A stretch of 64,000 nucleotides of DNA from Cordylochernes scorpioides (lineage: Eukaryota > Arthropoda > Arachnida > Pseudoscorpiones > Chernetidae), in NCBI GenBank assembly GCA_030710605.1, contig CP092877.1:73655970-73719969 (forward strand), read 5' to 3'. How positions within the stretch are numbered: the first letter of the stretch is position 1; each line of letters opens with the position of its first letter. Below the pieces are notes generated by a model. It was not told the DNA's origin and made no database searches. It saw nothing but the letters and a program-made list of their open reading frames with translations. The position numbers and the translations under genes are program-made. Below are positions 14,518-58,867 of the stretch, piece after piece.

Positions 14518-14714
14518 TGTCATAATTTGTATAGTTAATGCCAAGAGATATAATTTATTTTCGTCAAAATAAGTATGTAAATATGTTACGCTTGTGTTAA
14601 AATGTAAACATGTAAATTCATCCATCTATAAAAGCTGTACAAAAAATAAAGGTGGCAGACATCGTGTGTGCGCTGTTCGCTTGGCATAACGGTTGCGTCT
14701 TTTCATTTAGCTAC

Positions 14715-14718
<4 letters not shown>
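14518..14718 (+). mobile_element. Short solo LTR, 201 bp
   Basis: Starts TGTCATAATTTGTATA, the same first twelve bases as the LTRs of the element at 40033. It has an AATAAAGG signal near 14645 followed by a GT-rich stretch, ends CTACGACA, and is bordered by TATA on both sides inside a long TA microsatellite. Confidence 0.7.
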
Positions 14719-27299: not shown

Positions 27300-28620
27300 C
27301 GAGGTGTGTTCAAAAAGTATCGCGACTTTTGTGTTATTTCAAAAATTATTTATTTATTCATGAATACCTATTTTGTCCCCTTCAAAGTAATCCCCATGAG
27401 ATATTATACACTTGTGCCAACGGTTTTTCCAATCTTTGAAGCACTTCAAAAAATCATTTTTTAAAATTTTTTTCAGCTCCTCCTTCGATGCCGTCTTTAT
27501 CTCGTCAAGCGTAGCGTAACGTCGTCCTTTCATGGGCCTCTTCAGTTTAGGAAACAATAAAAAGTCACAGGGGGCCAGATCTGGGGAATACGGTGGCTGC
27601 GGCATCATTAGTGTGTTGTTTTTGGCCAAAAGGTCGCGCACAAGCAACGATGTGTGAGCAGGGGCGTTATCGTGGTGCAAAAGCCAATTTTTGTTCTTCC
27701 ACAAATCCGGGCGTTTCTGGCGGATTGCTTCGCGCAAATTGCGCATAACTTGCAGGTAATATTCCTTATTGACCGTTCTTCCCTGTGGCAAGAACTCATG
27801 ATGCACCACGCCCCTGCAATCGAAGAAAACTGTCAGCAAAACTTTCACATTCGACCGAACTTGGCGCGCTTTTTTCGGTCTTGGTTCGTGCGGCAGCTTC
27901 CATTGAGATGATTGAGCTTTGGTTTCCACGCCATAACCATAAACCCACGCTTCGTCACCAGTTATGACCCTCTGGATCAAATTTGGGTCGTCGCGGACAG
28001 AGTCCAACATTTCATTAGCAATGTTCATGCGATACTGTTTTTGGTCGCAATTGAGCAATTTTGGTACGAATTTCGCTGCGACCCGTCTCATGCCCAAATC
28101 ATTGATAAAAATCGAATGGCACGAGCCAATCGATATGTTTAGGTCCTCAGCAACTTCTCTAACGGTGATTCGACGATTGGCCAATATCATTTTCTCCACT
28201 TCATTAATTTTTTCGTCTGTTGTTGAAGTGCTCGGGCGTCCGGCACGCTCTTCGTCGTTCACATCTTCTCGGCCTTCTGAGAACATTTTGTACCACCGAT
28301 AAACGTTGCTTCGGTCCAAGGTAGCTTCTCCGTATGCCACAGTCAACATTCGGAATGCATTCGCACACTTAATTTCGTTTTTCACACAAAATTTGATACA
28401 GGTTCTTTGATCCATTTTTTTAATAGGTAAAAATCGAAGACGATCTAAAACACCTGCAAGCAAAGCAGCTGTCAACAATTAAGTGAACATTCAAAATGGT
28501 CGAGCTTGTCGGCATAAGTGAGAGACATGAGTACCAACATAAAGCCACAAAAAGATCGAAATTCGAATATACGTAACCCGCGAAAATTCAAAGGTCGCGA
28601 TACTTTTTGAACACACCTCG
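27300..28620 (-). mobile_element. mariner element, complete, 1321 bp
   Basis: Inverted repeats begin CGAGGTGTGTTCAAAAAGTA on both sides and extend to about 28 bp (TCGCGACTTT on one side, TCGCGACCTT on the other). TA flanks at 27298-27299 and 28621-28622 are the expected target duplication. One intact transposase frame fills most of the interior. A terminal fragment of the same family is at 5364. Confidence 0.95.
27354..28415 (-). CDS. mariner transposase, intact
   Basis: A 353-residue protein from the ATG at 28415, which opens MDQRTCIKFC. An upstream in-frame start would add 21 residues, but the chosen start gives the usual mariner length (345-355). The N-terminal half holds the paired helix-turn-helix DNA-binding region (about 1-110, with GRPSTSTTDEKI as linker) and a KFVPKLL block at the WVPHEL position. 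The catalytic DD34D triad is complete: D154 in TGDEAW, D249 in HHDNAPAH and D284 in LAPCDF, with 34 residues between the last two and YSPDLAP before the third. It would cut and join DNA at TA sites in the nucleus. No stop or frameshift is present, so the copy is potentially active. Confidence 0.95.
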   Translation of the reverse strand: MDQRTCIKFCVKNEIKCANAFRMLTVAYGEATLDRSNVYRWYKMFSEGREDVNDEERAGRPSTSTTDEKINEVEKMILANRRITVREVAEDLNISIGSCHSIFINDLGMRRVAAKFVPKLLNCDQKQYRMNIANEMLDSVRDDPNLIQRVITGDEAWVYGYGVETKAQSSQWKLPHEPRPKKARQVRSNVKVLLTVFFDCRGVVHHEFLPQGRTVNKEYYLQVMRNLREAIRQKRPDLWKNKNWLLHHDNAPAHTSLLVRDLLAKNNTLMMPQPPYSPDLAPCDFLLFPKLKRPMKGRRYATLDEIKTASKEELKKILKNDFLKCFKDWKNRWHKCIISHGDYFEGDKIGIHE

Positions 28621-35096: not shown

Positions 35097-35868
35097 TGTA
35101 ATAAGTTGAGGTCTGGTAGCCTCTTGTAGAATCCTGTCGACTCTCGCTATATGCTGTGGTAACCGGTGGTCAAACCTGTAGTAGCCGAGAGGGACAGTCA
35201 GGGCGTGGAGAGTTTTTCCAGTACCTCTCTGCACTTTGGAAGACCTTTAACAGTTTTCACAGAGTACAGGCAGTCGTGGTCGAGGCAGAGTGGAAAGCTT
35301 GGGAACCACACACACAAAACGAAGAGACACAGCTGAAGTAGGAAAGTTCCATGAACAGATAGGAGTTGAGCTAAGCAAGATGGAGATATAGAGTTCTTAC
35401 TGTTTTACATGGCGATGATGTGGACCTGGCTACAAGCGACAAGGGCTTGCGCCGACGGTGAAGAGACTAACTGCGGACTAACAACCTGTCGGCTAAAACC
35501 GAGGTGTTTATATACCATTCCCGAGGAGGGGGGGGGGGGGGGGGGGGGGAGACATCTGCGAATTTGAACTTTGAACGTCTGGGGCATTCTGCACCCTTTG
35601 GACCAGATGGCAACGGGCTGCCGAATTCCTTTAGAGTTGTCTCGAATTTAGACGTTTTTGAACTTCTCAACCTTGCTTTAACTTAGCTCTTAATCTATTA
35701 CATAGTTTTATTTATTTGTCTTCAATTTGTACAAAGTACATTACATATGGCGATGCAATGACACAGATTAATCATGCGCATAATTATTTATAGATGTGTT
35801 TCTATATACAACATGACAATCTTGTTATAAGTAATTATACAATATAGGGTTGTTGGTTTAAATTACCA
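35097..35868 (-). repeat. E1 3' LTR
   Basis: 772 bp. It contains a run of 22 G at 35528-35549 and the complement of AGTCGACAGGATTC near 35130. Confidence 0.85.
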
Positions 35869-38800
35869 TAGATGAGCCCCGGGAGTGAAAGGGTTTATCC
35901 GGGTTTAAACGGGTAAAGCCTCTCTAACACAGGTAAGTAATTAAAATTTCTTTTAATTAATTTAAACTGTGAGGGTTAAAAAGGGCTATAACAAGATGTT
36001 TTGTTTGGATATATCTGAAAATTATAAAAAATAAAATTTATGTTTAATTTAAAAGTTATGATATTCATTATAAAAGAGAAATTTAGATGAAACCTTTGTT
36101 TGATAAAAAAAATAATGATGCTAAAAATAAAATGATGTTCTAAGATATTGTTGGCGGGCGTTGGAAAGGGTTAGGGGTTAAAGAATATGCAATTGTAAGT
36201 ATTACACAGGCAACCAAATACTTAGGTCCAGGTGCAAAGCGAGGATATAGACTTGTGCGTCTTCCGAGGCAATGTTTCACCTGTGATCCTGTATAAGGGT
36301 TACAGTGCTTTGTCACAATTGTAGGGTTATTGCGTTGAAAAGTTGTTGAAGAACAAGTTGTTAATATGATTGAAAGGGGTGAAATGGAGTCATGCGTTAA
36401 GTAGAATTGTTGTAGCGACAGTAGGTGATCTGACTTGACTTAAAATCAAAGGTTGATTGTGGTCCGCTAGAGCTAAAAAATTGAGTTGTGGACGCTTTGT
36501 GTTTGCGTGGGTGATTATGCTCTAGGGATGATTGTAGTAAACTTTTGAAACGTGTTCAAGGCCAGAAGTTGGGATCTTTAATTCTGGGGAACTTTGATCA
36601 AATAGTTTGTTGAAATTATGAAATCAAAAAATTGTCAAGCAGTACTATCGTTTTTCTACGTTGATGTGAAGCAATGACTAAGAAGATAGTAGTGTAAAGT
36701 ACACTGAAGTGGTTAGATAAATAGATTGTTGTATGCCCGAAAGTTAATGATAACATAGTCATTTTATATAAAGGTATAAAAACAAATATAAAATAAATAA
36801 AAATATAGCAATATCATTGTGGTTGAATAAAGTTTAAGTGGATAAAATCAAACAATCAATATATAAAAGTGATAATAATGAAGAATTAAAGTGATTTTTG
36901 ACAACAAATATATCTTTTGTAATACTAAAATAATATTATGAAAATAAAATTGATTTTTTATATATAATGTTGGATTAAAAACTAGTGCTTATATAATTGA
37001 AAGGCAAAAATAAAAAATAAAATATTTTATACAAAAAAAAACAGAATATAAGTAAAGATTGTGATCTCAATTTAACATGTAAAATGTTTGATATGTAGAA
37101 AAAAATAGAGATTTACACAGGATTAAAATATCAAAATGTTCAATTTAAGGTAGGTCTTGTTCAAATTCAAATATCTAAATGTTTAAAAGTTGGGTTAAGA
37201 TATCGACTGTAGAAAAATGTGTGGAATTAAAAGGAATGCGGGACATGGGGATGGAAGGACTGGGGGCTTCTGGGGAAGAGTGGCGATGGATTTAGGTGTC
37301 CATTCCTACGACCGGGGTGCGATTTATATTGTTTTTGAGGGGAGGGAGATATGGGGGAAGTCTGCGGCTCACTGGCTTGAAATTCTTTCTCTCCTAGTCT
37401 GGTTATTTCGGGGTATGGATTAGGATGAGTTATCAGATTTGGGGTATAATATTGAACATTAAATAGGTGGGTGGCAAACTTGTGACAGAATGGGGTGTGT
37501 TATTAGAAATTTGTGGAATTTTTCTGAGGTAAAAGCGGGCGCTCTGTCAGATAACAGACATTTTGGAAATCCTTGTTGTAGTACAGTTTTGAGAGTTTGA
37601 ATGTACGTTAGGGTACTGGTTTACTGGTTAAACTCCCTTTGAGAGTGGTGAAAGCTTGTTGGTAGTTTTATGGTGTATTTGAAAGATGTAGTTTTCTCGG
37701 TGTTCGTAAGTGTTGTCGTTCGACGCTGTTGCGGTAAAAAATGTTATTCAATGATGTCAGGTTTAGATGTGAGTAAAAGTGCTATTTTCGACGTGGACAC
37801 GCTTTGGGGTTAGATGTGTCACAGGCATGAAGGCGTCTTTGTGGCCTGTTAAGTGAGAAAAATTGTTGTGATGCGCTGTGTGACACGAGTGAATTGAATG
37901 GAAAGGTGTCACGTGAAGTCGTTGTTGGTACAAAATCTAACCTGTTTCACCATGAATAACAAATTTACTAGTCCTGAGTGGTGGTTGTACAAAACACATC
38001 GAGATATCTTGGTTGTTAGTGAATGTGGCACGTTTAGTGGCGACGGAGCTTGTGTTGCTCGAATTCGATTTGTTGCTAAGTCGCGCGCTAATAGATGGTG
38101 GCCAATTGTAGAAAGTGATGGGAAGTGTGTTGTAGTTTGTTGAGAGAGATGTGTGGATAATTAATAATTATGCATGTAAAAGGAAAGGACGAGGGAGTGA
38201 AACTATGTTGGGATTTAATGATTGTAATAGTTTTGGAAGACTGTGACTTAATTTAGCTACTGACGTGGTAGTTGATGGGATTTTTATTTTTAACTTTTTT
38301 GGGGAAAGATAGTTACTTTTTTAGTTATGATTTTGAAGATATTGTATCTTTCGATTTTTTGCAATTTAAAAAAAAAAAATGCGTTTCACCTATGTTTATT
38401 AAAATTTGAATATATTTTTTAAATCGTTGATTATGGTAGTGCAAATATTATCCTTGTAAAAGGGGTAATGGCGTTATAGTGACTTATAAATTGAATGGGG
38501 CGTTTATATAAAATATTGAACATAAAAATGATTTTTGCAAAGTTTTGAGCATTTGATTAAAAAATTGGTGTTTTGGTATAAAAATAAGATATTAAGAAAA
38601 ACACACAAATAAGTTTAGAATTATGATTCGAGTAATTTAAAAAAAAAATAATGATTTTTTAAAAATGTAAAATTTAAAGTAATGATTTAAAATTTATAGG
38701 TTGCTTAAAATGAGGTAAAAATTGATAAATGAGGGTGTAAAAGATTTAAAATTTGAATTTAAATGATATAAAAATGGTAAAAATTGATTTTAAAATGATT

Positions 38801-39253
38801 TCAGTGAAAATAAACATTAAACTTATGGAAAATCAAGTTGTGAGCATGAGGAGAAAGTTTTTAAAAACTCACAGTTTTGAGGATTGTTCAGTCAGGAGAC
38901 TTGGTCTTTAGTTGTCGTCCTACTGATGACGTGGAAGACGCTCCGAGTAGAGCTTGTAGAAGTTTGTAACTTCTGTTTGGTGACGGCAGCATGTCGCCTG
39001 GAAGATTGGTGCGTTGTAAGGCCGAAGGGGGAAAGTCTCACCGGCTTATTTTGCGGGATTTTCGGCTGTGTCGTTGAAGTGTTGACAGCTTGCTCCTGAT
39101 ATATAGTCTCTTGTTGGCGGGGAGATTGCTTGATCGTTTCGTTGGACTGGCGGGTTGTTCCTCCATCTTGGCTCTTTCTCTCTTTTCTATCTGGACAGGC
39201 TTCTTACCTTCTTCACTGTGGTGTCCTTCGTTTGGGTTATCCTGTCGACTCTC
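35869..39253 (-). other. E1 interior, decayed
   Basis: The plus strand is strikingly G/T-rich (so the element's sense strand is A/C-rich), as in E2. Short plus-strand frames at 37217, 37898 and 38884 are antisense and have no recognised domain. Apart from the integrase remnant I recognise nothing. Confidence 0.6.
37497..37575 (-). pseudogene. Gypsy-type integrase core remnant in E1
   Basis: The minus strand reads CLLSDRAPAFTSEKFHKFL, matching the second catalytic aspartate region of Ty3/gypsy integrases (consensus SDRG..FTS..F). Flanking sequence is out of frame or unrecognisable. The aspartate is present but isolated. Confidence 0.7.
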
Positions 39254-40020
39254 TGTAATAAGTTGAGGTCTGGTAGCCTCTTGTAGAATCCTGTCGACTC
39301 TCGCTATATGCTGTGGTAACCGGTGGTCAAACCTGTAGTAGCCGAGAGGGACAGTCAGGGCGTGGAGAGTTTTCCAGTACCTCTCTGCACTTTGGAAGAC
39401 CTTTAACAGTTTTCACAGAGTACAGGCAGTCGTGGTCGAGGCAGAGTGGAAAGCTTGGGAACCACACACACAAAACGAAGAGACACAGCTGAAGTAGGAA
39501 AGTTCCATGAACAGATAGGAGTTGAGCTAAGCAAGATGGAGATATAGAGTTCTTACTGTTTTACATGGCGATGATGTGGACCTGGCTACAAGCGACAAGG
39601 GCTTGCGCCGACGGTGAAGAGACTAACTGCGGACTAACTAACTATTGTCGGCTAAAACCGAGGTGTTTATATACCATTCCCGAGGAGGGGGGGGGGGGGG
39701 GAGACATCTGCGAATTTGAACTTTGAACGTCTGGGGCATTCTGCACCCTTTGGACCAGATGGCAACGGGCTGCCGAATTCCTTTAGAGTTGTCTCGAATT
39801 TAGACGTTTTCGAACTTCTCAACCTTGCTTTAACTTAGCTCTTAATCTATTACATAGTTTTATTTATTTGTCTTCAATTTGTGCAAAGTACATTACATAT
39901 GGCGATGCAATGACACAGATTAATCATGCGCATAATTATTTATAGATGTGTTTCTATATACAACATGACAATCTTGTTATAAGTAATTATACAATATAGG
40001 GTTGTTGGTTTAAATAACCA
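39254..40020 (-). repeat. E1 5' LTR
   Basis: 767 bp. The G-run is 15 long (39687-39701). Its sense 3' end reads AGTCGACAGGATTCTACAA, some spacer, then TTACA. Confidence 0.85.
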
Positions 40021-40032
40021 TATATACATATA

Positions 40033-40943
40033 TGTCATAATTTGTATATAATTAAATGCAACCCCGACCCACTATGTATGTATCATGTATGATTTTCAAA
40101 GACTTAATAAAGAACAAGGTAACTGGAGGAAAGAAAGTAACAAAAGATATAGGAAGTAAGACTAAAGCTGGCACGACTATTTTGGCACCCCTGTGTCAAC
40201 ATTGCAGGGGCAGAGACCGGGCGTCTCTAGTGACCGCAGAAGTTATTTTAGCCAAGATTCACTCAATACTTCCTGACAAACAAGACGTGTCGAGTGACCA
40301 GAAGTTATAAAAGTTTGAGAGATATCCAGTACTTCCGGCAAAAACAGGACGTGTCTAATATCCTTCGAAACTATAAGCGTCAAGACACCAAACACTTCCT
40401 GACGAAATCAGATATACCAGGCAGGGCACAGCTTTCACCAAAGGAAGCCGCCGGCCTATCAGAAGATAGCACCTTAAGTAGGTCAACCAATAGGGAAAGA
40501 TCATGTGAGATCTCTCAACCAATCAGAGAGAAACTGACTCGTGGTGTTAAATCGAAAGACAAGAATGGTTAGTAGTGATTTAGCTTCCAAGAAGGTGACA
40601 TCTGCTCTAGACCTCTCTCCCTCTGCTCATCCCACAGCTAAGTACAATCACCGCCATGTGATCAACTAATTAATAAGTCAAATCGCTCAGTTCTTCTCAA
40701 GCTTTCTTTCCTCCAACCCGTTGCCTTATATTTCCAAACTCAATCACGTGTCCTGATTATTCCTAACTGTGTGCTTCACTTACCACTCAACGACTGCGCT
40801 TCAACCAATCCTCACCATTCAAATCCAACAACAAGGAACCCCGCAACGATATTGCCACAGAACGGTTAAGTCGACAGGATTCTACAACAGTGTAATACAT
40901 CAAATATTACAGTGATATAACAACAATTTGGCATCATATTACA
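40033..40943 (+). repeat. E2 5' LTR
   Basis: Begins TGTCATAATTTGTATATAA and ends CATCATATTACA. Three CCAAT boxes (GTCAACCAATAGG near 40484, CTCAACCAATCAG near 40516, TTCAACCAATCCTC near 40801) and CCTTATATTTCC near 40723 make a promoter plausible. It holds two overlapping small frames (40056-40310, 84 codons, and 40294-40572, 92 codons). AAGTCGACAGGAT at 40868-40880 repeats the primer-binding-site word inside the LTR. Confidence 0.9.
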
Positions 40944-40944
40944 G

Positions 40945-40959
40945 TAAGTCGACAGGATA
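40945..40959 (+). promoter_or_regulatory. Candidate primer-binding site of E2
   Basis: AAGTCGACAGGAT begins about three bases after the 5' LTR. The equivalent word occurs at the same place in E1 (minus strand). The priming tRNA is not identified; the usual leading TGG is not seen. Confidence 0.5.
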
Positions 40960-40987
40960 AAGATTATAGAGCTTAATCAGGATAAAG

Positions 40988-41464
40988 ATGGAAATTAACC
41001 CAGGCGCCAGCACAACAAAAGACAATGACAACCCAAGAGAGAAGGAACTGGCAACGAACGGAAAGAAGCTGACAACGAACGAGGCGACAAGACACACCCT
41101 GGCGACGGTAATTTTAGAACTGACCGCCGCGCTACAAGGGGCGAGATCCCCGCAACTGAAAGCGGTCTTCCGGAGCGCCACCCTCGGGACAACCGCCGCC
41201 TGCACCGCCGGTACGTGTCCGAACAACCTGACGCCCACCGAGTTATCGCCATCCGCCATGCCGTACCCGTGCACCCGGAAGCAACCCACGCGACACGGAC
41301 CCAGTGTACCGACAACGCGATCCACTCGAATGGAAGCAGTACAAATGACTAGATTTCCCTTTCAATCGCGCGGACAGTTCAAAAGGTCCCGATCCGGTTC
41401 AACAGATATTCCAAGCCAGCCACACCAAGCCGAAGACGCCACAATGGAGACTTTTCGAGACTAA
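40988..41464 (+). CDS. E2 gag-position open frame, 158 codons
   Basis: Starts MEINPGAST at the first ATG after the primer-binding site. It is rich in Thr, Pro, Ser and Arg with a basic C-terminal part (QSRGQFKRSRSGS). No capsid domain and no CCHC zinc knuckle are recognisable, and it is much shorter than a typical gypsy Gag (300-450 residues). The C-terminus overlaps the start of the pol-like frame, which is +1 relative to it, as in frameshifted gag-pol. It may be a nucleic-acid-binding remnant or simply an eroded gag. Confidence 0.6.
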   Translation: MEINPGASTTKDNDNPREKELATNGKKLTTNEATRHTLATVILELTAALQGARSPQLKAVFRSATLGTTAACTAGTCPNNLTPTELSPSAMPYPCTRKQPTRHGPSVPTTRSTRMEAVQMTRFPFQSRGQFKRSRSGSTDIPSQPHQAEDATMETFRD

Positions 41465-43805
41465 GGTAGGCAATCCACCCAATGACACCATCAAATTAAC
41501 TTTGGACTTGTATCTGACCCAGGACCTACCATGTACCTTTCTCATTGAACCAGACGCAGGTTCGAACATATTGCCGTATCATTTATACAATAGATTAAAA
41601 GCACAACTCCCCAATTTAAGTATTAAAAAACCTTCCCTTGATCTATCCCCCCTAAATAGTTTTACGAAAATAATAGGACATTTAACTTTCCCTCTGACAA
41701 TAGGCCAAATAACCCGTAGAGAGAACTTCCACGTGGTAAATGCATCCTTGCCATTTGGAGTTCTAACCTTAAAAACCCTTTATCAGTATAAATTAAAACT
41801 AAATTATAATCGCGGCACTATTTTCCAACTTGGCGTCCCATTGTCTAATACTATCTACCACTTTAAACATGTGTCAAATGAATGCAAGCACGGGCTAGGC
41901 CAAAACCTGTTCCAAAGGACTCGCACAGCACCCAAAGCTTTCACACGTGGAAACCCTTGCCTGCATTCATTGCCCAAACCCCAAATATTTACATGCCACC
42001 ATTATAATCTCACACCACACAACTTTTCACTCAACCCAATTACCAGTACTATATGCCCACAACATGTAAAGCCACCACGACTCCAACCTACAATTCCAAT
42101 AATGCCCAAAAAAGTGTCCGTACACCGACACAGCTCACCCACTTACCACACAAAATCCACACATGACCATACTTCGCAACGCCAGAAACACGCAAATGTA
42201 CCTCACAACACACGCAACACGCACGCCAAAAGACAACAACAACGACAAACAAGCGCATGCACAACCGTTAAGAATAATACGATCATCCCGTCTACACAAA
42301 ACATAGAAAAAATTCACGCCACCAAACAACCACACAATCGAAAAACCTTGCGATCTTTCCTAAAAGCTGTGAACGCCTATAAAGAGTTCATTCCGGACCA
42401 CGCCCGCTTGCGGACGCCACTTGTCAACCTTCTAAAAAAGGATGTCATGTGGGTCTGGGATGACGAATGCCAGAAAGCGTTCACTAACCTGAAAGAAAAC
42501 CTTACCACACACCCCACATTACACCTTTACCAGGAAGGTCTGCCATGCCAGGTGTACTATAATACCTCAACATTCAGCATTACAGGCGTTCTTAAACAAG
42601 TCTACCCTGATGGGAAGACATACACCGTTCAACATTTCAGCCGATCTCTACGTAGTCACGAGCGAAATTATTCAGACTTGGAACTACAATGCCTAGCCAT
42701 TGTGGAAAGTGTGGATAATTTCCGCACCTGTCTAATGGACAGAAAGTTTACAATATTTTCTGACCATCCCGCATTGCAGTGGTTGAAAGAGATCAAAGCT
42801 CCGTCAGGCAGATTGTTTCGATGGAGGTTAAGATTGTCAAGATACGAATATGAGGTCCGTAGCATAAATGGAGTACAACAATATGAAACGGGCGTTGTAA
42901 CTCGTATCCCATTTTGTGGCTTTCTAGATGCGCCACTCATAAAGAACCAACAATCTTCTCCACCGGGAAAATCCCGCGTGACTATGGACCCCAATAAACT
43001 GCGCACCGTCTCCCGAAAAGGAGTACTTAAAACTATAGTCCCAAATTCATTTACAACCAGACTTCTTAAGTCCGTACACACACAACACCACCACCCAAAC
43101 ATCTCCAAGATGACGAGACTCATCTCAGCACAATATTATTGGCAGAACATGACACAAGACATCGCAAAACAGGTGAAAACCTGCCCCACCTGCCGATTCG
43201 CTAGAAGAATCGATGAATACAAACAACCTGCACGTAAAAATACCGACACAGGTACCCAAACAAAACAAAATTCGTACATAAAGCACAGCGTACACACAAC
43301 ACAAACAATGCCAAAATTACCACATCCACGTCAGAGAAACGATCTCACGTCTCAACCTAAACCAATTACCGCCGACATATCTCTAATAAAACCATTGACG
43401 ATCAAGCAGGAGAACTGTAAACCTGACAACCAATCCAATCATATCACACCACTCCCTAAAGATATCAAACAGGAGAACTGCGAACCTACCAATCATTTAA
43501 ATTCTATAATTAATAAGGTTCAAGCAAATAGTTCAGAGTCCCCAGTTACAAAAATGTGGACGAACATGGGGCAATATCCTATCTTTCATCTGATTTTTAT
43601 CCTTTGTTTATTAGTTCTACCGTACAACTGTATTCCAATTTTATTCATTAAATACTTGTTTATCTATGCTATGCCCGATCAGAAAATCTTCGAACTACAA
43701 GAGGCAGTTTTTCATTGTGGACAAGCATTTATAAAACTCCTCATAATTTTAGGAACCATCTTCGCAGAAAACCTAAATAAACTCCGAAGAGATAACAGTA
43801 GCTGA
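41445..43805 (+). CDS. E2 pol-like open frame lacking RT palm and IN core
   Basis: The frame enters from the gag overlap (WRLFETKVGNPPND); residues below count from TTG at 41502. A retropepsin-like start has FLIEPDAGSNILP, with DAG (18-20) where DTG/DSG is usual. Residues 110-280 are low-complexity, rich in H, T, P, N and Q, where reverse transcriptase with YVDD should be; none is seen. From 283 the RT connection and RNase H of Ty3/gypsy appear (SFLKAVNAYKEFIPDHARLR, then VYYNTSTFSITGVL, SDLELQCLAIV, FSDHPALQWL). N354 replaces the first catalytic Asp, E394 and D421 remain, and the final ADALSR-type Asp is lost. An integrase HHCC finger follows (H526, H530, C561, C564), but no DDE core. The C-terminus has two hydrophobic segments (about 690-722 and 741-754). 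The frame is uninterrupted for 2.3 kb. Confidence 0.85.
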   Translation, partial: WRLFETKVGNPPNDTIKLTLDLYLTQDLPCTFLIEPDAGSNILPYHLYNRLKAQLPNLSIKKPSLDLSPLNSFTKIIGHLTFPLTIGQITRRENFHVVNASLPFGVLTLKTLYQYKLKLNYNRGTIFQLGVPLSNTIYHFKHVSNECKHGLGQNLFQRTRTAPKAFTRGNPCLHSLPKPQIFTCHHYNLTPHNFSLNPITSTICPQHVKPPRLQPTIPIMPKKVSVHRHSSPTYHTKSTHDHTSQRQKHANVPHNTRNTHAKRQQQRQTSACTTVKNNTIIPSTQNIEKIHATKQPHNRKTLRSFLKAVNAYKEFIPDHARLRTPLVNLLKKDVMWVWDDECQKAFTNLKENLTTHPTLHLYQEGLPCQVYYNTSTFSITGVLKQVYPDGKTYTVQHFSRSLRSHERNYSDLELQCLAIVESVDNFRTCLMDRKFTIFSDHPALQWLKEIKAPSGRLFRWRLRLSRYEYEVRSINGVQQYETGVVTRIPFCGFLDAPLIKNQQSSPPGKSRVTMDPNKLRTVSRKGVLKTIVPNSFTTRLLKSVHTQHHHPNISKMTRLISAQYYWQNMTQDIAKQVKTCPTCRFARRIDEYKQPARKNTDTGTQTKQNSYIKHSVHTTQTMPKLPHPRQRNDLTSQPKPITADISLIKPLTIKQENCKPDNQSNHITPLPKDIKQENCEPTNHLNSIINKVQANSSESPVTKMWTNMGQYPIFHLIFILCLLVLPYNCIPILFIKYLFIYAMPDQKIFELQEAVFHCGQAFIKLLIILGTIFAENLNKLRRDNSS

Positions 43806-45734
43806 AAAGATGACCAAACAATGTCGGAGAAACCACGCTCCAAAAACAAGCCCCGAGCCACACCCCAAAATAAATAGACGGGGGATAAATTGGGAATCAC
43901 CCCGGGGAGGGACTTTGTTTCTCCACATCGCCCCCTGCTTCCGGTTTCTAATTACCGTGGGGCCCCTCGACCAACAGCTGAATTGAGGTCAACTGTGGGC
44001 TTCTCTAAGTGTCGTTCAGTTTGGATCCCAATACGAGCTACATATCGACTTTTACAAAAAACATAGTTCAATTATATTCTCACAAGAAACTTAAGACACA
44101 CAGACACTCCAAATGAGTTCACATTTCTATTCTTTTATTCTTTTAAAGACTTCCAAACTTTACATTTTTCACACTAGGCACAAATTCCACCTACGCGTAG
44201 ACATCCCAGACCTTAGGATCTTGACAACACATAGAATTCGTTTCACACATTTCTTACACAAAAACTTCTAACATTTTTTCACAACACACACAAAGACAAA
44301 AAGTTACACATAATTGAGCAAGTAAAACATTTATAGGGCAAAATGGAACAATCAATACATTTAGATCAGGGCATGTAGATACCAAAGGGTTCCAACCAAT
44401 ACATCTTATTTTTCATATCAATCATTTTATTATTTTCTCTCAATTAAAAGTTAAATATTTAATCAATTTATCAATTTATTCAACTTATTACCACTTTTTA
44501 TCATTAATTATCATTTTTTTTTCCCAATTATTTTATATTATCATTTTTATTTATCAATTATCATTCTATTTACCACTTGACTTATATTGTCACAACTCAA
44601 TTATCAACGAAAACACTGGTTTTCGATTAAACTAAAAACATTAAATCACCCTTTATTGTTGAAACCTTTTTATTTTTCATTTTTCTTTTTTTTCAAGCAC
44701 TCAACTTTGATTTCGCTCAAAAAACTTTTATTTTATTTTTATTTTTGATTTCTCAAAAGCCCTAATAAAATTCCCTCGGTCTCCATTCCCAATTCCGAGC
44801 TAGAATATAATTAGGCAATTTTCCTTTTTTTTCTCACCACGCACCAAGCATTCACTTTGATTTCGTTCAACTCTTATTTTTATTTTTATTTTGATTTCTC
44901 AAAAGACCTAATGAAAACCCCTTCGATTTCATTCCCAATCTCAAGTAGGATAGTAATTAGGCAATTCTTTTTTTTTTTTTCACCAACGCAACAAAGCATT
45001 TTCTCTTTTTTTTCATACAACAAGGCTTTTTCTTTTTTTTTGTGCAACCAAGCCTTCACTTTGATTTCATTCAACTTTTATTTTTATCTTATTTTATTTT
45101 GATTTCTCAAAAGACCTAATAGAATTCCTTCGATTTCATTCCCAATCTCGAATAGAATATGGTTAGGCATTTTTCCTTTTTTTTTCTCACCACTCAACCA
45201 AACACATTCAATTTTGATTTCATTCAACTATTCTTATTTCATTTTGTTTTGATTTCAAAGCACCTTATGAAATTTCCTCGATTCCTTTTTCTCAGAATTC
45301 GAGCAAAAAAGTAACTAAGCAGTTGTCTTTGTCACCATGCAACAAAATATTTTTCTTTTTCAACCAAACACATTCAATTTTGATTTCATTCAACTATTTT
45401 ATATTATTTTTATTTGATTTCAAAAGCCTTAATAGAACTCCCTCGAATTCATTTCTTAACTCGAGTAGAATTCGTTTAGGCGCATTTTCCTTTTTTTTGC
45501 CCACTATGTACCATAACATTCATTGATTTCTTACAATTAAAAAATTTTTGATTTCTATTAATTATACTCAACCTATATCATCAACACCATTCTATTTTAC
45601 TTTTATATTACCAGCAATGTTTGTATATAGCCCCTCCATACCCACAACTAATTTTCCCACAAAATTATTTTTCACTTTACAGAATTCTCTCAGGCTAACC
45701 CCTTCTTGAATTCTTCACATGTAGGGGGCGCATC
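43806..45734 (+). repeat. E2 3' non-coding region with tandem repeats
   Basis: 44690-45500 contains about five degenerate units of 140-165 bp sharing TTTGATTTCATTCAACT, CCTAATAGAATTCC and CGATTTCATTCCCAATCTC, each ending in a long T-run. 43806-44690 has no recognised feature. Confidence 0.75.
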
Positions 45735-46645
45735 TGTCATAATTTGTATATAATTAAATGCAACCCCGACCCACTATGTATGTATCATGTATGATTTTCA
45801 AAGACTTAATAAAGAACAAGGTAACTGGAGGAAAGAAAGTAACAAAAGATATAGGAAGTAAGACTAAAGCTGGCACGACTATTTTGGCACCCCTGTGTCA
45901 ACATTGCAGGGGCAGAGACCGGGCGTCTCTAGTGACCGCAGAAGTTATTTTAGCCAAGATTCACTCAATACTTCCTGACAAACAAGACGTGTCGAGTGAC
46001 CAGAAGTTATAAAAGTTTGAGAGATATCCAGTACTTCCGGCAAAAACAGGACGTGTCTAATATCCTTCGAAACTATAAGCGTCAAGACACCAAACACTTC
46101 CTGACGAAATCAGATATACCAGGCAGGGCACAGCTTTCACCAAAGGAAGCCGCCGGCCTATCAGAAGATAGCACCTTAAGTAGGTCAACCAATAGGGAAA
46201 GATCATGTGAGATCTCTCAACCAATCAGAGAGAAACTGACTCGTGGTGTTAAATCGAAAGACAAGAATGGTTAGTAGTGATTTAGCTTCCAAGAAGGTGA
46301 CATCTGCTCTAGACCTCTCTCCCTCTGCTCATCCCACAGCTAAGTACAATCACCGCCATGTGATCAACTAATTAATAAGTCAAATCGCTCAGTTCTTCTC
46401 AAGCTTTCTTTCCTCCAACCCGTTGCCTTATATTTCCAAACTCAATCACGTGTCCTGATTATTCCTAACTGTGTGCTTCACTTACCACTCAACGACTGCG
46501 CTTCAACCAATCCTCACCATTCAAATCCAACAACAAGGAACCCCGCAACGATATTGCCACAGAACGGTTAAGTCGACAGGATTCTACAACAGTGTAATAC
46601 ATCAAATATTACAGTGATATAACAACAATTTGGCATCATATTACA
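45735..46645 (+). repeat. E2 3' LTR
   Basis: 911 bp, the same length as the 5' LTR, and I found no difference on reading. This implies very recent insertion. Confidence 0.9.
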
Positions 46646-46649
46646 TATA

Positions 46650-47918: not shown

Positions 47919-47919
<1 letters not shown>

Positions 47920-48213
47920 GTCATAATATATACTCTTCCTGGAATAATAAAACAAACCTACAGCCAACCCAGAGAGAGATGGGCAGCTAAAGGGTGTCAC
48001 TTTAGACATCACGACATTCCAAAGGGGCTCCTGGGGTACGTCACTCAACACCTCGGGACTTTGGACACAGTTGGTGATTGTGTGCGACACGTTAGGGCGT
48101 TCAGCGGTGGCAGCCCCCTCGCGCTCCCTCTCTCTCTCGGATTGCCTGGGTCCCATATTCCAAATCGTGGTGTCCTTATTTCTCTTTCCCCACATTATTA
48201 ATATATTGTCACA
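47919..48213 (+). mobile_element. Solo LTR, 295 bp (short form)
   Basis: Starts TGTCATAATATATACTCTTC and ends ATATTGTCACA, inside a TA microsatellite. AATAATAAAACAAAC supplies an AATAAA signal. The same family occurs at 52155 but with a 26-bp longer 3' end. The 112-codon plus-strand frame through the TA tract is not a gene. Confidence 0.8.
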
Positions 48214-52154: not shown

Positions 52155-52478
52155 TGTCATAATATATACTCTTCCAGGAATAATAAAGTAAACCTAGAGT
52201 CAGCCCAGAGAGAGACAGCAGCTAAAGTCCGGTCATTTGAGACACCAGCGACATTCCAGGGGGCGACCACAGGGCCTTTTCTTGGAACCTCGAGACGAAT
52301 TAGACAGTTGGTGATTGTGTGCGATACGAACGGCCGGCCGCTCAGCGGTGGCCGGTCCCGTCTCTCTCTCTCTCTCTCTGGTTGTCTGGGTTCCTCTTCC
52401 AACTTGTGGTGTGATTATTTCTCTTTCCCCACATTATTTTTATATTGTCACATTGAAAGTCGACAGGATCTTATCACA
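52155..52478 (+). mobile_element. Solo LTR, 324 bp (extended form)
   Basis: Same family as 47919: starts TGTCATAATATATACTCTTC and reaches ATATTGTCACA at 52452, where the short form stops. It then adds TTGAAAGTCGACAGGATC and TTATCACA before TATA. TATA also precedes it. The added segment contains the word found at the candidate primer-binding sites of E1 and E2. Confidence 0.8.
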
Positions 52479-56236: not shown

Positions 56237-58530
56237 CTAACAGCTGAGGAAAAGCTCAGCTGCCACGTCGTGGGCTTTCTCAAGAAGCTTGCTGTGATTT
56301 CTCAGCAGCTTACTCTCGATCGCGCCCCTCGCCCTCCTTCTCTCTTCCTGCACTCCCACTACCCTTGGACAATCCAAGACGTAGTGGCGTGCATCCACAT
56401 CCCTTTCTTCATAGACGCAATCAGGGTTTCTCTTAATTTTAAATCTGTGGAGACTCCTGGGAAAAGGCCCATGTCCCGAACTACCCTAAGGAATTTGTGG
56501 GACATTACCTTACAGAGGTACTTGGGTGTTGTTACCCAATTGAATATACCTCTCTCCCCTTCACACTGTTCCTCCATCTGTCCAACCATAAGTCCTGGAC
56601 GTGCCCCCTGATCCTCCTATAAACTTCTTTCTTGGTCACTGGGGTCCTCAGTGATCTATCTCTAAAGCATCCTGCCTTAGTGAGCCTGTCTGCGAACTCA
56701 TTACCTTCTATGAGGCTGTGTCTCCTAACCCAATAGAGCTCCGGAGCCCGCGTTGTCATCTCCAGCTCCTGGATTATTTGATGCGCGAATTGCCCTTTCA
56801 CCAGATTGATGGCGACGAGGGCCGACATACAATCTGAATAGAGGCGGTCCGGGCTGAAGTTCTTCTCGGCACACACTCTGAGGGCTACCCTGATCGCAAC
56901 CAGCTCGGCTGAAAAGACCAATTCGTCCACTCTGAGTGTTAAGCTCTCTGAAGATCAGCTCTCCATTAGTGAAAATCACTACTTCAGTTCCAGTATTGGT
57001 TCCAGACTCACTACCATCAGTGAAAACCTCCGTGCCAATCCCTGTCGGCCCTCCAGGACTCCAATTCCACTTTGGCAACCACTGCGGAGGCTTCCTTGGG
57101 GGGTCCCTCTTCCATTCCAGGGCACCCGCTTCAAGTTCCAGGGCATCTTCCCTGTTCTCCCAGATCTTCTGTCTGATGGTCTCCTCCTCTAGTTTCAATC
57201 CCAGGGGAATAAGCCCAGCGAGGACCAAAAAGGCCTCACTGCTGGTAGTGCGATATCCCCCTGTGATTCTGAGTGCCGCTGTCCTCCGCACGCTCTCTAG
57301 AGTTTTTGCCACCTTCTGATCCCTGTTATAGCAGGATTGGCTCGACACAGGAGAGGAAGAGGTTCCTAAAAATAGTACCCTCCTTCCCCCCTTCCCCCCC
57401 CCTGTTGAGAGCCAACCAGGGCAGGCCTGCACAACGCCTCCCTGCCTCTCGCCACCATCTCCTCCGCCTGGTATTGCCAACCCATCTTGTCATCAATGAC
57501 CACCCCCATGACTACCCTCCGTCCTTTCATCCGGATAGCCGGCTTGTGCTCCCATTTGATCCCTTTCCTTTTAGTTCTTATGTCCCTAGGTTTAAAGCTG
57601 AGGGCTTTAGTTTTGGAGACATTGAACTTAAGGCCAGAGTCATGGGCCCAATTCGAGAGGATTTGGAGAGAAGCTTCAACACACTTCTCAGCTTTCACTC
57701 TTGAAGCAGCCTCAATGATGAGGAACTGGTCGTCAGCATAGAGAACCAGCCTGGCTCCCTCAGGGAGCTCCTCCTGGAAAACGGTGTTTACCAGGATATT
57801 CCACAGAATAGGTCCGCAGCAAGAGCCCTGGGGGCAACCCCTAGCACAGTTTCTTTCCAACTTCCGCCCACCAAAACTGAGGCTAATCCGTCTATCCCTC
57901 AGGAAGTCACGAACCAAGCTGCACAAATTATCAGGACAACCCATGTTCATCAAATTTCTCATCAGCTTGTTCCAGCTCATGGAATTGAACGCACCATCAA
58001 TGTCCAGGGCCACGAAAAGAACCCAAGCACCCTTATTTAAGCCCATCTCAACCCCCTCTAACACCTCGTTCAGAGCTGTGGTTGTGGAGTTCCCTTCCCT
58101 AAAACCATGTTGGAAAGAGGAAAGGAGCTCATTACTCTCTAGCCAGTGCTTCAGTCGCTGAGCTAGTAGGCTATCCAGGACCATACCTAGGCACACTAGT
58201 AAAGAAAGCGGATGATAATCATTAGGAGAATTACCCTTTCTACCAGACTTTTCGAGAAGCACTACTCGAGCAACCTTCCATGCCTCAGGAAAAGTACCAG
58301 TGTCCAGACACCTATTGAAAAACCTGGCAAGAAGTGATGGGTGCATTCTTAACAGGGCTTTCACGACCGTGTTATCGATCCCTTCGGGACCAGGAGATTC
58401 CCTTTTCCCGAACTTGAAAGCCGTCAGTTTCACCTCATTCTCAGAAAAGGGCGGATCCACCAAACCACAAGTGTTCAGAGAGATCTCGTCCTCTGGTTCC
58501 TCGTTTCCGAAGTGCCGATCCAAGTTGTTT
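56237..58530 (-). pseudogene. R1-like non-LTR retrotransposon ORF2
   Basis: On the minus strand the first frame (58523 to 57366) holds the reverse transcriptase: GPEGIDNTVVKALL, NDYHPLSLLVCLGMVLD, FQHGFREGNSTTTAL, ALDIDGAFNSMSW, RGCPQGSCCGPILWN and the catalytic YADDQFL. The second (57480 to 56725) has TAALRITGGYRTTSSEA, and RNase H begins at VFTDGSESG. The third (56930 to 56532) continues with FSAELVAIRVAL, LYSDCMSALVA and EGNEFADRLTKAG. The last segment has a Cys/His finger (...DARHYVLDCP) and stops at 56237. Three frameshifts and a missing endonuclease make it a pseudogene. R1-type RT is mostly reported from arthropods. Confidence 0.85.
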
Positions 58531-58867
58531 TTATTTTATCTTCTGCTTTCGAGCGAGAAGGTCTAGAACACATTATCTCTGAATTTTCTCATTGTTGGTG
58601 GATGGAACAGCACCAGTGATTATTTTGGCCGCTTTTGCTTGAACACTGTCTAGTCTTACTTTTAGTGATGAGCTTGAGGGAGCCCAGACCGGTGTTGCAT
58701 ATTCCATTATCGGTTTTATTAAGGTGATATATGTTGTTCTAAGAATTCTAGGTTTTTCTTCCCAATTTGTTCCACATAGCCATCTCAGAATGTTTAGTTT
58801 TCTGGTAGCTATATTTTAGGTGCTAATTATGTGTTTTGAAAATTCCAATTCCTCATCAATGACAGTT

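Follow-up and report, generated by a model that had tools for sequence, protein, structure and literature searches.

Can the Pol-like frame of an LTR retrotransposon be kept open once the enzymes that it encodes have lost their catalytic centres? The usual view of non-autonomous LTR elements is that they are either passengers without coding capacity or suppliers of Gag. In a stretch of 64,000 nucleotides from the pseudoscorpion Cordylochernes scorpioides, referred to here as the window, the LTR element E2 (40033-46645, plus strand) carries a long frame in which pieces of Pol persist. A first-pass annotation of this locus had described the frame as enzymatically dead and had offered two reasons for its openness: a selected role of its product, structural or dominant-negative, and very recent capture.

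Anatomy and age of E2

The two plus-strand LTRs of E2, at 40033-40943 (TGTCATAAT...ATTACA) and 45735-46645, are both 911 bp long and match at 911 of 911 positions, which bears out the earlier reading that they are equal and identical and that the element inserted recently. This identity implies that the source copy was itself mobile recently and presumably already had an open frame. A 4-bp target duplication, TATA, flanks the element on the left (40029-40032) and on the right (46646-46649). The primer binding site (PBS) region lies at 40944-40960 (plus strand) and has the core AGTCGACAGGAT at 40947-40958, which may resemble the 3' end of tRNA-Ser; scanning the window with Rfam and for tRNAs gave no matches, so there is no tRNA in it against which the core could be set. 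The purine tract AGGGGGCGCATC (45723-45734, plus strand) stands directly 5' of the 3' LTR. Upstream of the LTR, the 3' part of the interior (43806-45734, plus strand; about 1.9 kb) is T-rich, lacks a long frame and contains degenerate tandem repeats. Along the whole element C exceeds G, while the excess of A over T ends at about 44 kb.

E2 combines TG...CA LTRs and a short target duplication with an RNase H (residues 319-448) that precedes the H2C2 finger (residues 513-565), which is the arrangement of Ty3/Gypsy elements (Metaviridae) and not the Copia order. The Mag lineage is recognised by a tRNA-Ser type primer site and a Mag reverse transcriptase (RT); for clade placement by RT sequence, E2 offers no RT palm in Pfam searches.

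Two frames overlap in the interior. ORF1 (40988-41464, plus strand; 158 aa; start context AAGATGG) has no Pfam match, stays open in 1.3% of shuffles and is the only one of the tested pieces with nominally significant codon-position composition (p 0.017). ORF2 (41349-43805, plus strand; stop to stop 41349-43802) includes the frame of the first-pass annotation, 41502-43805, by which residues are numbered here. Its first ATG does not occur before codon 201, so that either fusion to ORF1 or a non-ATG start is needed. A candidate +1 shift site, TTT_CGA (41453-41458, plus strand), is located two codons 5' of the ORF1 stop: the 3' end of ORF1 reads ACT TTT CGA GAC TAA, and a +1 slip at TTT_C leads into ORF2, giving a predicted fusion of 156 + 782 codons. 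In the accessible text of PMC3498833, a +1 site consisting of UUU_C followed by CGN is proposed for several eukaryotic viruses. The TTT_CGN motif arises in 23% of codon shuffles of the ORF1/ORF2 overlap, so that the motif alone says little and it is only its position just 5' of the ORF1 stop that favours the candidate. ORF2 may thus continue ORF1 through a +1 shift.

Domains kept, lost and replaced

Pfam lists six families for ORF2 at E<=1: RT_RNaseH_2 (7.3e-27), RT_RNaseH (2.7e-25), Integrase_H2C2 (1.5e-14), two zinc-finger families that match weakly and a third family that matches by chance. Neither the RT palm nor the integrase core is among them, in agreement with the first-pass annotation, and no Pfam family of Gag was found for ORF1 or ORF2. 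The integrase HHCC zinc finger, by contrast, is retained as had been claimed (residues 513-565; 43038-43196, plus strand), with the ligands H526, one of H529-H531, C561 and C564. The other conserved piece, residues 256-470 (42267-42911, plus strand), had been described as an RT connection/RNase H fold. Its RNase H is confirmed by Pfam, but no connection domain is present: the closest solved relative is Ty3 (PDB 7q5b and 4ol8; E 1.4e-19; match from residue 262), whose RT lacks such a domain (PMC3851607, a meeting abstract), and the piece is thus RT thumb plus RNase H. The letters DAG, previously read as a protease triad, do occur at residues 18-20 of the segment at the protease position (residues 1-135; 41502-41906, plus strand), but protease identity was judged by eye only, with no Pfam match there at E<=10 and a single PDB match that is unrelated (E 1.4). 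Two single-sequence AlphaFold models were useless (pLDDT 35.8 and 31.9).

According to the available part of PMC5371799, the active RNase H of Ty3 has D358, E401, D426 and D469; its activity is abolished by D358N, E401Q or D426N, reduced by D469N and greatly reduced by mutation of Y459. When E2 is read against Ty3 in an ungapped alignment, in which the pairing of residues is our own and the letters were checked, the first Asp (D358) is replaced by N354 and the last (D469) by G464, the two losses of Asp noted before, and two further losses emerge, E401 to Q396 and Y459 to S454. Only D426 is kept, as D421, and three of the four catalytic acids are lost. Judged by the effects of these residues in Ty3, the RNase H of E2 is very probably inactive.

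The frame at 41502-43805 is nevertheless unbroken, as the annotation had it, with 767 codons and no stop, and was open in 0 of 2000 dinucleotide shuffles, which carried a mean of 36.8 stops. Three of its segments match no Pfam family. Linker 1 (residues 136-255; 41907-42266, plus strand), rich in H, T, Q and N, lies at the position of the RT palm and was open in 365 of 10000 shuffles (odds 0.037); linker 2 (residues 567-690; 43200-43571, plus strand), at the position of the DDE core, was open in 15 of 10000 (odds 0.0015), the borders of both having been set by eye. The hydrophobic tail (residues 691-767; 43572-43802, plus strand; peak hydropathy 2.54) was open in 48 of 10000. In the non-coding controls, the interior of the neighbouring element E1 and the 3' part of E2, windows of 120 codons were never open (0/3024 and 0/1570, respectively), whereas some windows of 77 codons were (71/3153 and 74/1699), so that the openness of the tail carries little weight by itself. 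None of the seven ORF2 segments, not even RNase H, showed significant codon-position composition (lowest p 0.065, in the tail; 0.9 in the ORF1/ORF2 overlap), and this measure thus lends no support.

Linker 2 also contains the peptide IKQENC twice (43401-43481; residues 634 and 655), each time within P-x2-IKQE-x3-P, which we take to resemble a SUMO/synergy-control motif. Between the two six-codon copies there are two base differences, neither of which changes the amino acid; immediately beyond the copies the residues differ too.

Signals shared with neighbouring elements

E1 (35097-40020, minus strand) is a non-coding LTR element whose three frames contain 52, 59 and 49 stops. Its LTR start differs from that of E2; it shares with E2 the PBS core, the TATA flanks and a purine tract, CGGGGCTCATCTA, at the matching position (common pattern GGGGC[TG]CATC). 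The core AGTCGACAGGAT has seven exact matches in the window against 0.18 expected (three in E1, three in E2 and one in the LTR-like piece S2), the number of independent ones being smaller. The tip of E2, TATA|TGTCATAAT, recurs on three LTR-like pieces that resemble solo LTRs and whose ends were set by eye: N14 (14518-14718), S1 (47919-48213) and S2 (52155-52478). The sequence TATATGTCATAAT occurs four times against 0.01 expected, in E2 and in these same three pieces; TATA itself is common in the window (828 starts in 64000 bases). From this shared tip and PBS core, E2 is most likely non-autonomous and of Ty3 type, mobilised in trans by a partner that is unseen here, and a single replication machinery may serve several defective elements.

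S1 and S2 are related (77% identical), and S2 extends 26 bases beyond the CACA at which S1 ends, with the AGTCGACAGGAT core within those bases. In the LTRs of E1 and E2 the core begins 46 and 75 bases, respectively, 5' of the LTR end. Either LTR ends seem to have been moved beyond the primer site, or two such sites seem to be in use. N14, E1, E2, S1 and S2 all lie in TATA or TA-repeat targets, the right flank of S1 being TATT; these five targets suggest an integration preference, in a window in which TA repeats are common.

The window showed no recognisable autonomous element, and no second E2-like frame was found in the rest of it with E2 masked (tblastn best E 0.41). Protein and pattern scans of viral and prokaryotic contigs yielded no relatives of E2, a result that, given the origin of these contigs, is silent on the host genome; in the viral collection 5 and 6 stretches matched a peptide pattern, and 8 stretches came up in the other collection, none of them confirmed. 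The window also holds, both on the minus strand, a mariner-type transposase frame (27357-28478; 374 codons stop to stop) and a reverse transcriptase frame (57369-58535; RVT_1 2e-32) that is presumably non-LTR.

Selection, decay or inheritance of a dead Pol

The reading that we prefer, and to which we give an even chance of being right, is that E2 is a trans-mobilised Ty3-type derivative whose frame is kept open by selection for a non-catalytic product. If the ancestor was catalytic and the decay neutral, the absence of stops together with the loss of at least three of the four RNase H acids has a joint probability of at best 7.4e-5 (K2P) or 7.0e-5 (HKY), a calculation on one copy that has its optimum at d of about 0.03, leaves indels out, assumes the catalytic ancestor and was made after the residues had been seen. 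As an open frame with three of four acids lost is this unlikely under neutrality, we lean, with moderate confidence, towards selection for a product that is structural or interfering. E1 serves as a control, since it shares signals with E2 yet has stops in all three frames. The proposal of a structural or dominant-negative role is thus upheld by the joint probability for a single copy and by the open linkers, but not by codon-position composition in ORF2.

The strongest competitor, which we hold to be possible though well short of probable, is that E2 is a recent relic: a mobile copy would have lost its RT and integrase cores by template switching and been moved in trans, the rest of the frame being neutral and not yet broken. 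Defective copies are often moved in trans, and both the identical LTRs and the missing codon-position signal in ORF2 fit such a history; the joint probability of about 7e-5 given a catalytic ancestor speaks against it, as does the fact that both linkers replace the cores in frame and remain open. That probability loses its force if the ancestor already had a dead, tether-like RNase H. In retroviruses, Odin and Tat elements, as described in the accessible portions of PMC9040795 and PMC10508981, tethers are degenerate Ty3-type RNases H, and the RNase H of E2 might be such a domain, dead but structurally selected in an autonomous ancestor, with the palm, a second RNase H and the integrase core lost recently. 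We consider this unlikely, for Pfam shows a single RNase H stretch in E2, the score of this domain as RNase H is still 93.8 bits, and only about 45 residues lie between the RNase H and the HHCC match. Least probable, and very much so, is that a domesticated pol-derived host gene was taken up between the LTRs. The linkers and tail without Pfam family would suit this origin and composition helps little either way, but the frame occupies the position of Pol and overlaps the ORF1 that precedes it, and the very recent capture contemplated by the first-pass annotation is on this ground less likely.

Under selection for a non-catalytic product, an autonomous partner would supply the enzymes that copy and integrate E2 RNA, recognising E2 by its LTR tips, its primer site and its purine tract. 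The E2 polyprotein, probably made by a +1 shift from ORF1, would retain the RT thumb/RNase H body together with the zinc finger of integrase, with catalytic cores gone or mutated. Most likely it would associate, inside the particle, with RT and integrase of the partner, the HHCC finger perhaps joining integrase, and would either draw the partner's enzymes to E2 RNA or interfere with the partner; selection would then keep the frame open. In the asymmetric homodimer of Ty3 RT, one subunit supplies the polymerase and the other the RNase H (PMC3851607; PMC5371799), and the D426N mutant apparently still dimerises (PMC5371799), as far as the available text of these sources goes, so that an RNase H body that is itself dead could dimerise with a subunit that is active. 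Caution is called for, since the subunit A dimer contacts named in the same portion of PMC5371799, R140 and R203, precede the part of RT that E2 keeps.

If this reading holds, the survival of a Pol frame beyond the loss of its catalysis would mean that pol, too, can be kept for structure, as in the retroviral tether, and E2 would supply a natural adaptor or dominant-negative protein. It is rather doubtful that E2 stands for a class of non-autonomous LTR elements living by a dead Pol, made of docking parts and disordered linkers that steer or block a partner's enzymes; such a class would parasitise a parasite, with a decoy enzyme as its weapon. Among the open-licence papers listed no title names a class of this kind, which may exist in print. 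New here are the candidate +1 link to ORF1, the tip common to three LTR-like pieces and the PBS core common to E1.

LARDs have a non-coding interior, and BARE-2 has a broken gag and an intact pol. E1 is LARD-like; E2 is not a LARD, having an open frame of 767 codons in its interior, nor a TR-GAG element, as no Gag family was found in either ORF, nor of BARE-2 type, lacking RT palm and integrase core. Like E2, the LARD, TRIM, TR-GAG and BARE-2 elements are non-autonomous, and none is described with a dead Pol frame in the accessible text of PMC10552921. Closer is wheat RLG_Quinta, for which, in the available part of PMC11302176, mobilisation by RLG_Cereba is argued from shared LTR termini, PBS and purine tract; it lacks RT and integrase and keeps an intact frame. 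RLG_Quinta differs in that it retains GAG and a domain of unknown function instead of a dead RNase H and HHCC finger; the partner of E2 is unseen here. TARE1 was rejected as a precedent, being described as autonomous in the portion of PMC3701649 available. The truncated proteins Ty1 p22/p18 and DRT2 are restriction factors that inhibit the parent or a related element (PMC4599808 and PMC10951436, in part); they are Gag/capsid fragments, whereas the E2 frame is Pol-derived and its interference hypothetical. In Ty3, as in E2, RNase H lies 5' of integrase, and Ty3 has an RT palm and an integrase core. Its RNase H is active (PMC5371799, as excerpted), whereas the catalytic residues of E2 are mostly replaced. 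The tether elements, finally, share with E2 a degenerate Ty3-type RNase H, which they keep beside a new one (PMC9040795 and PMC10508981, in the parts at hand), whereas E2 has a single RNase H stretch and no RT palm, although its ancestor may have had a second.
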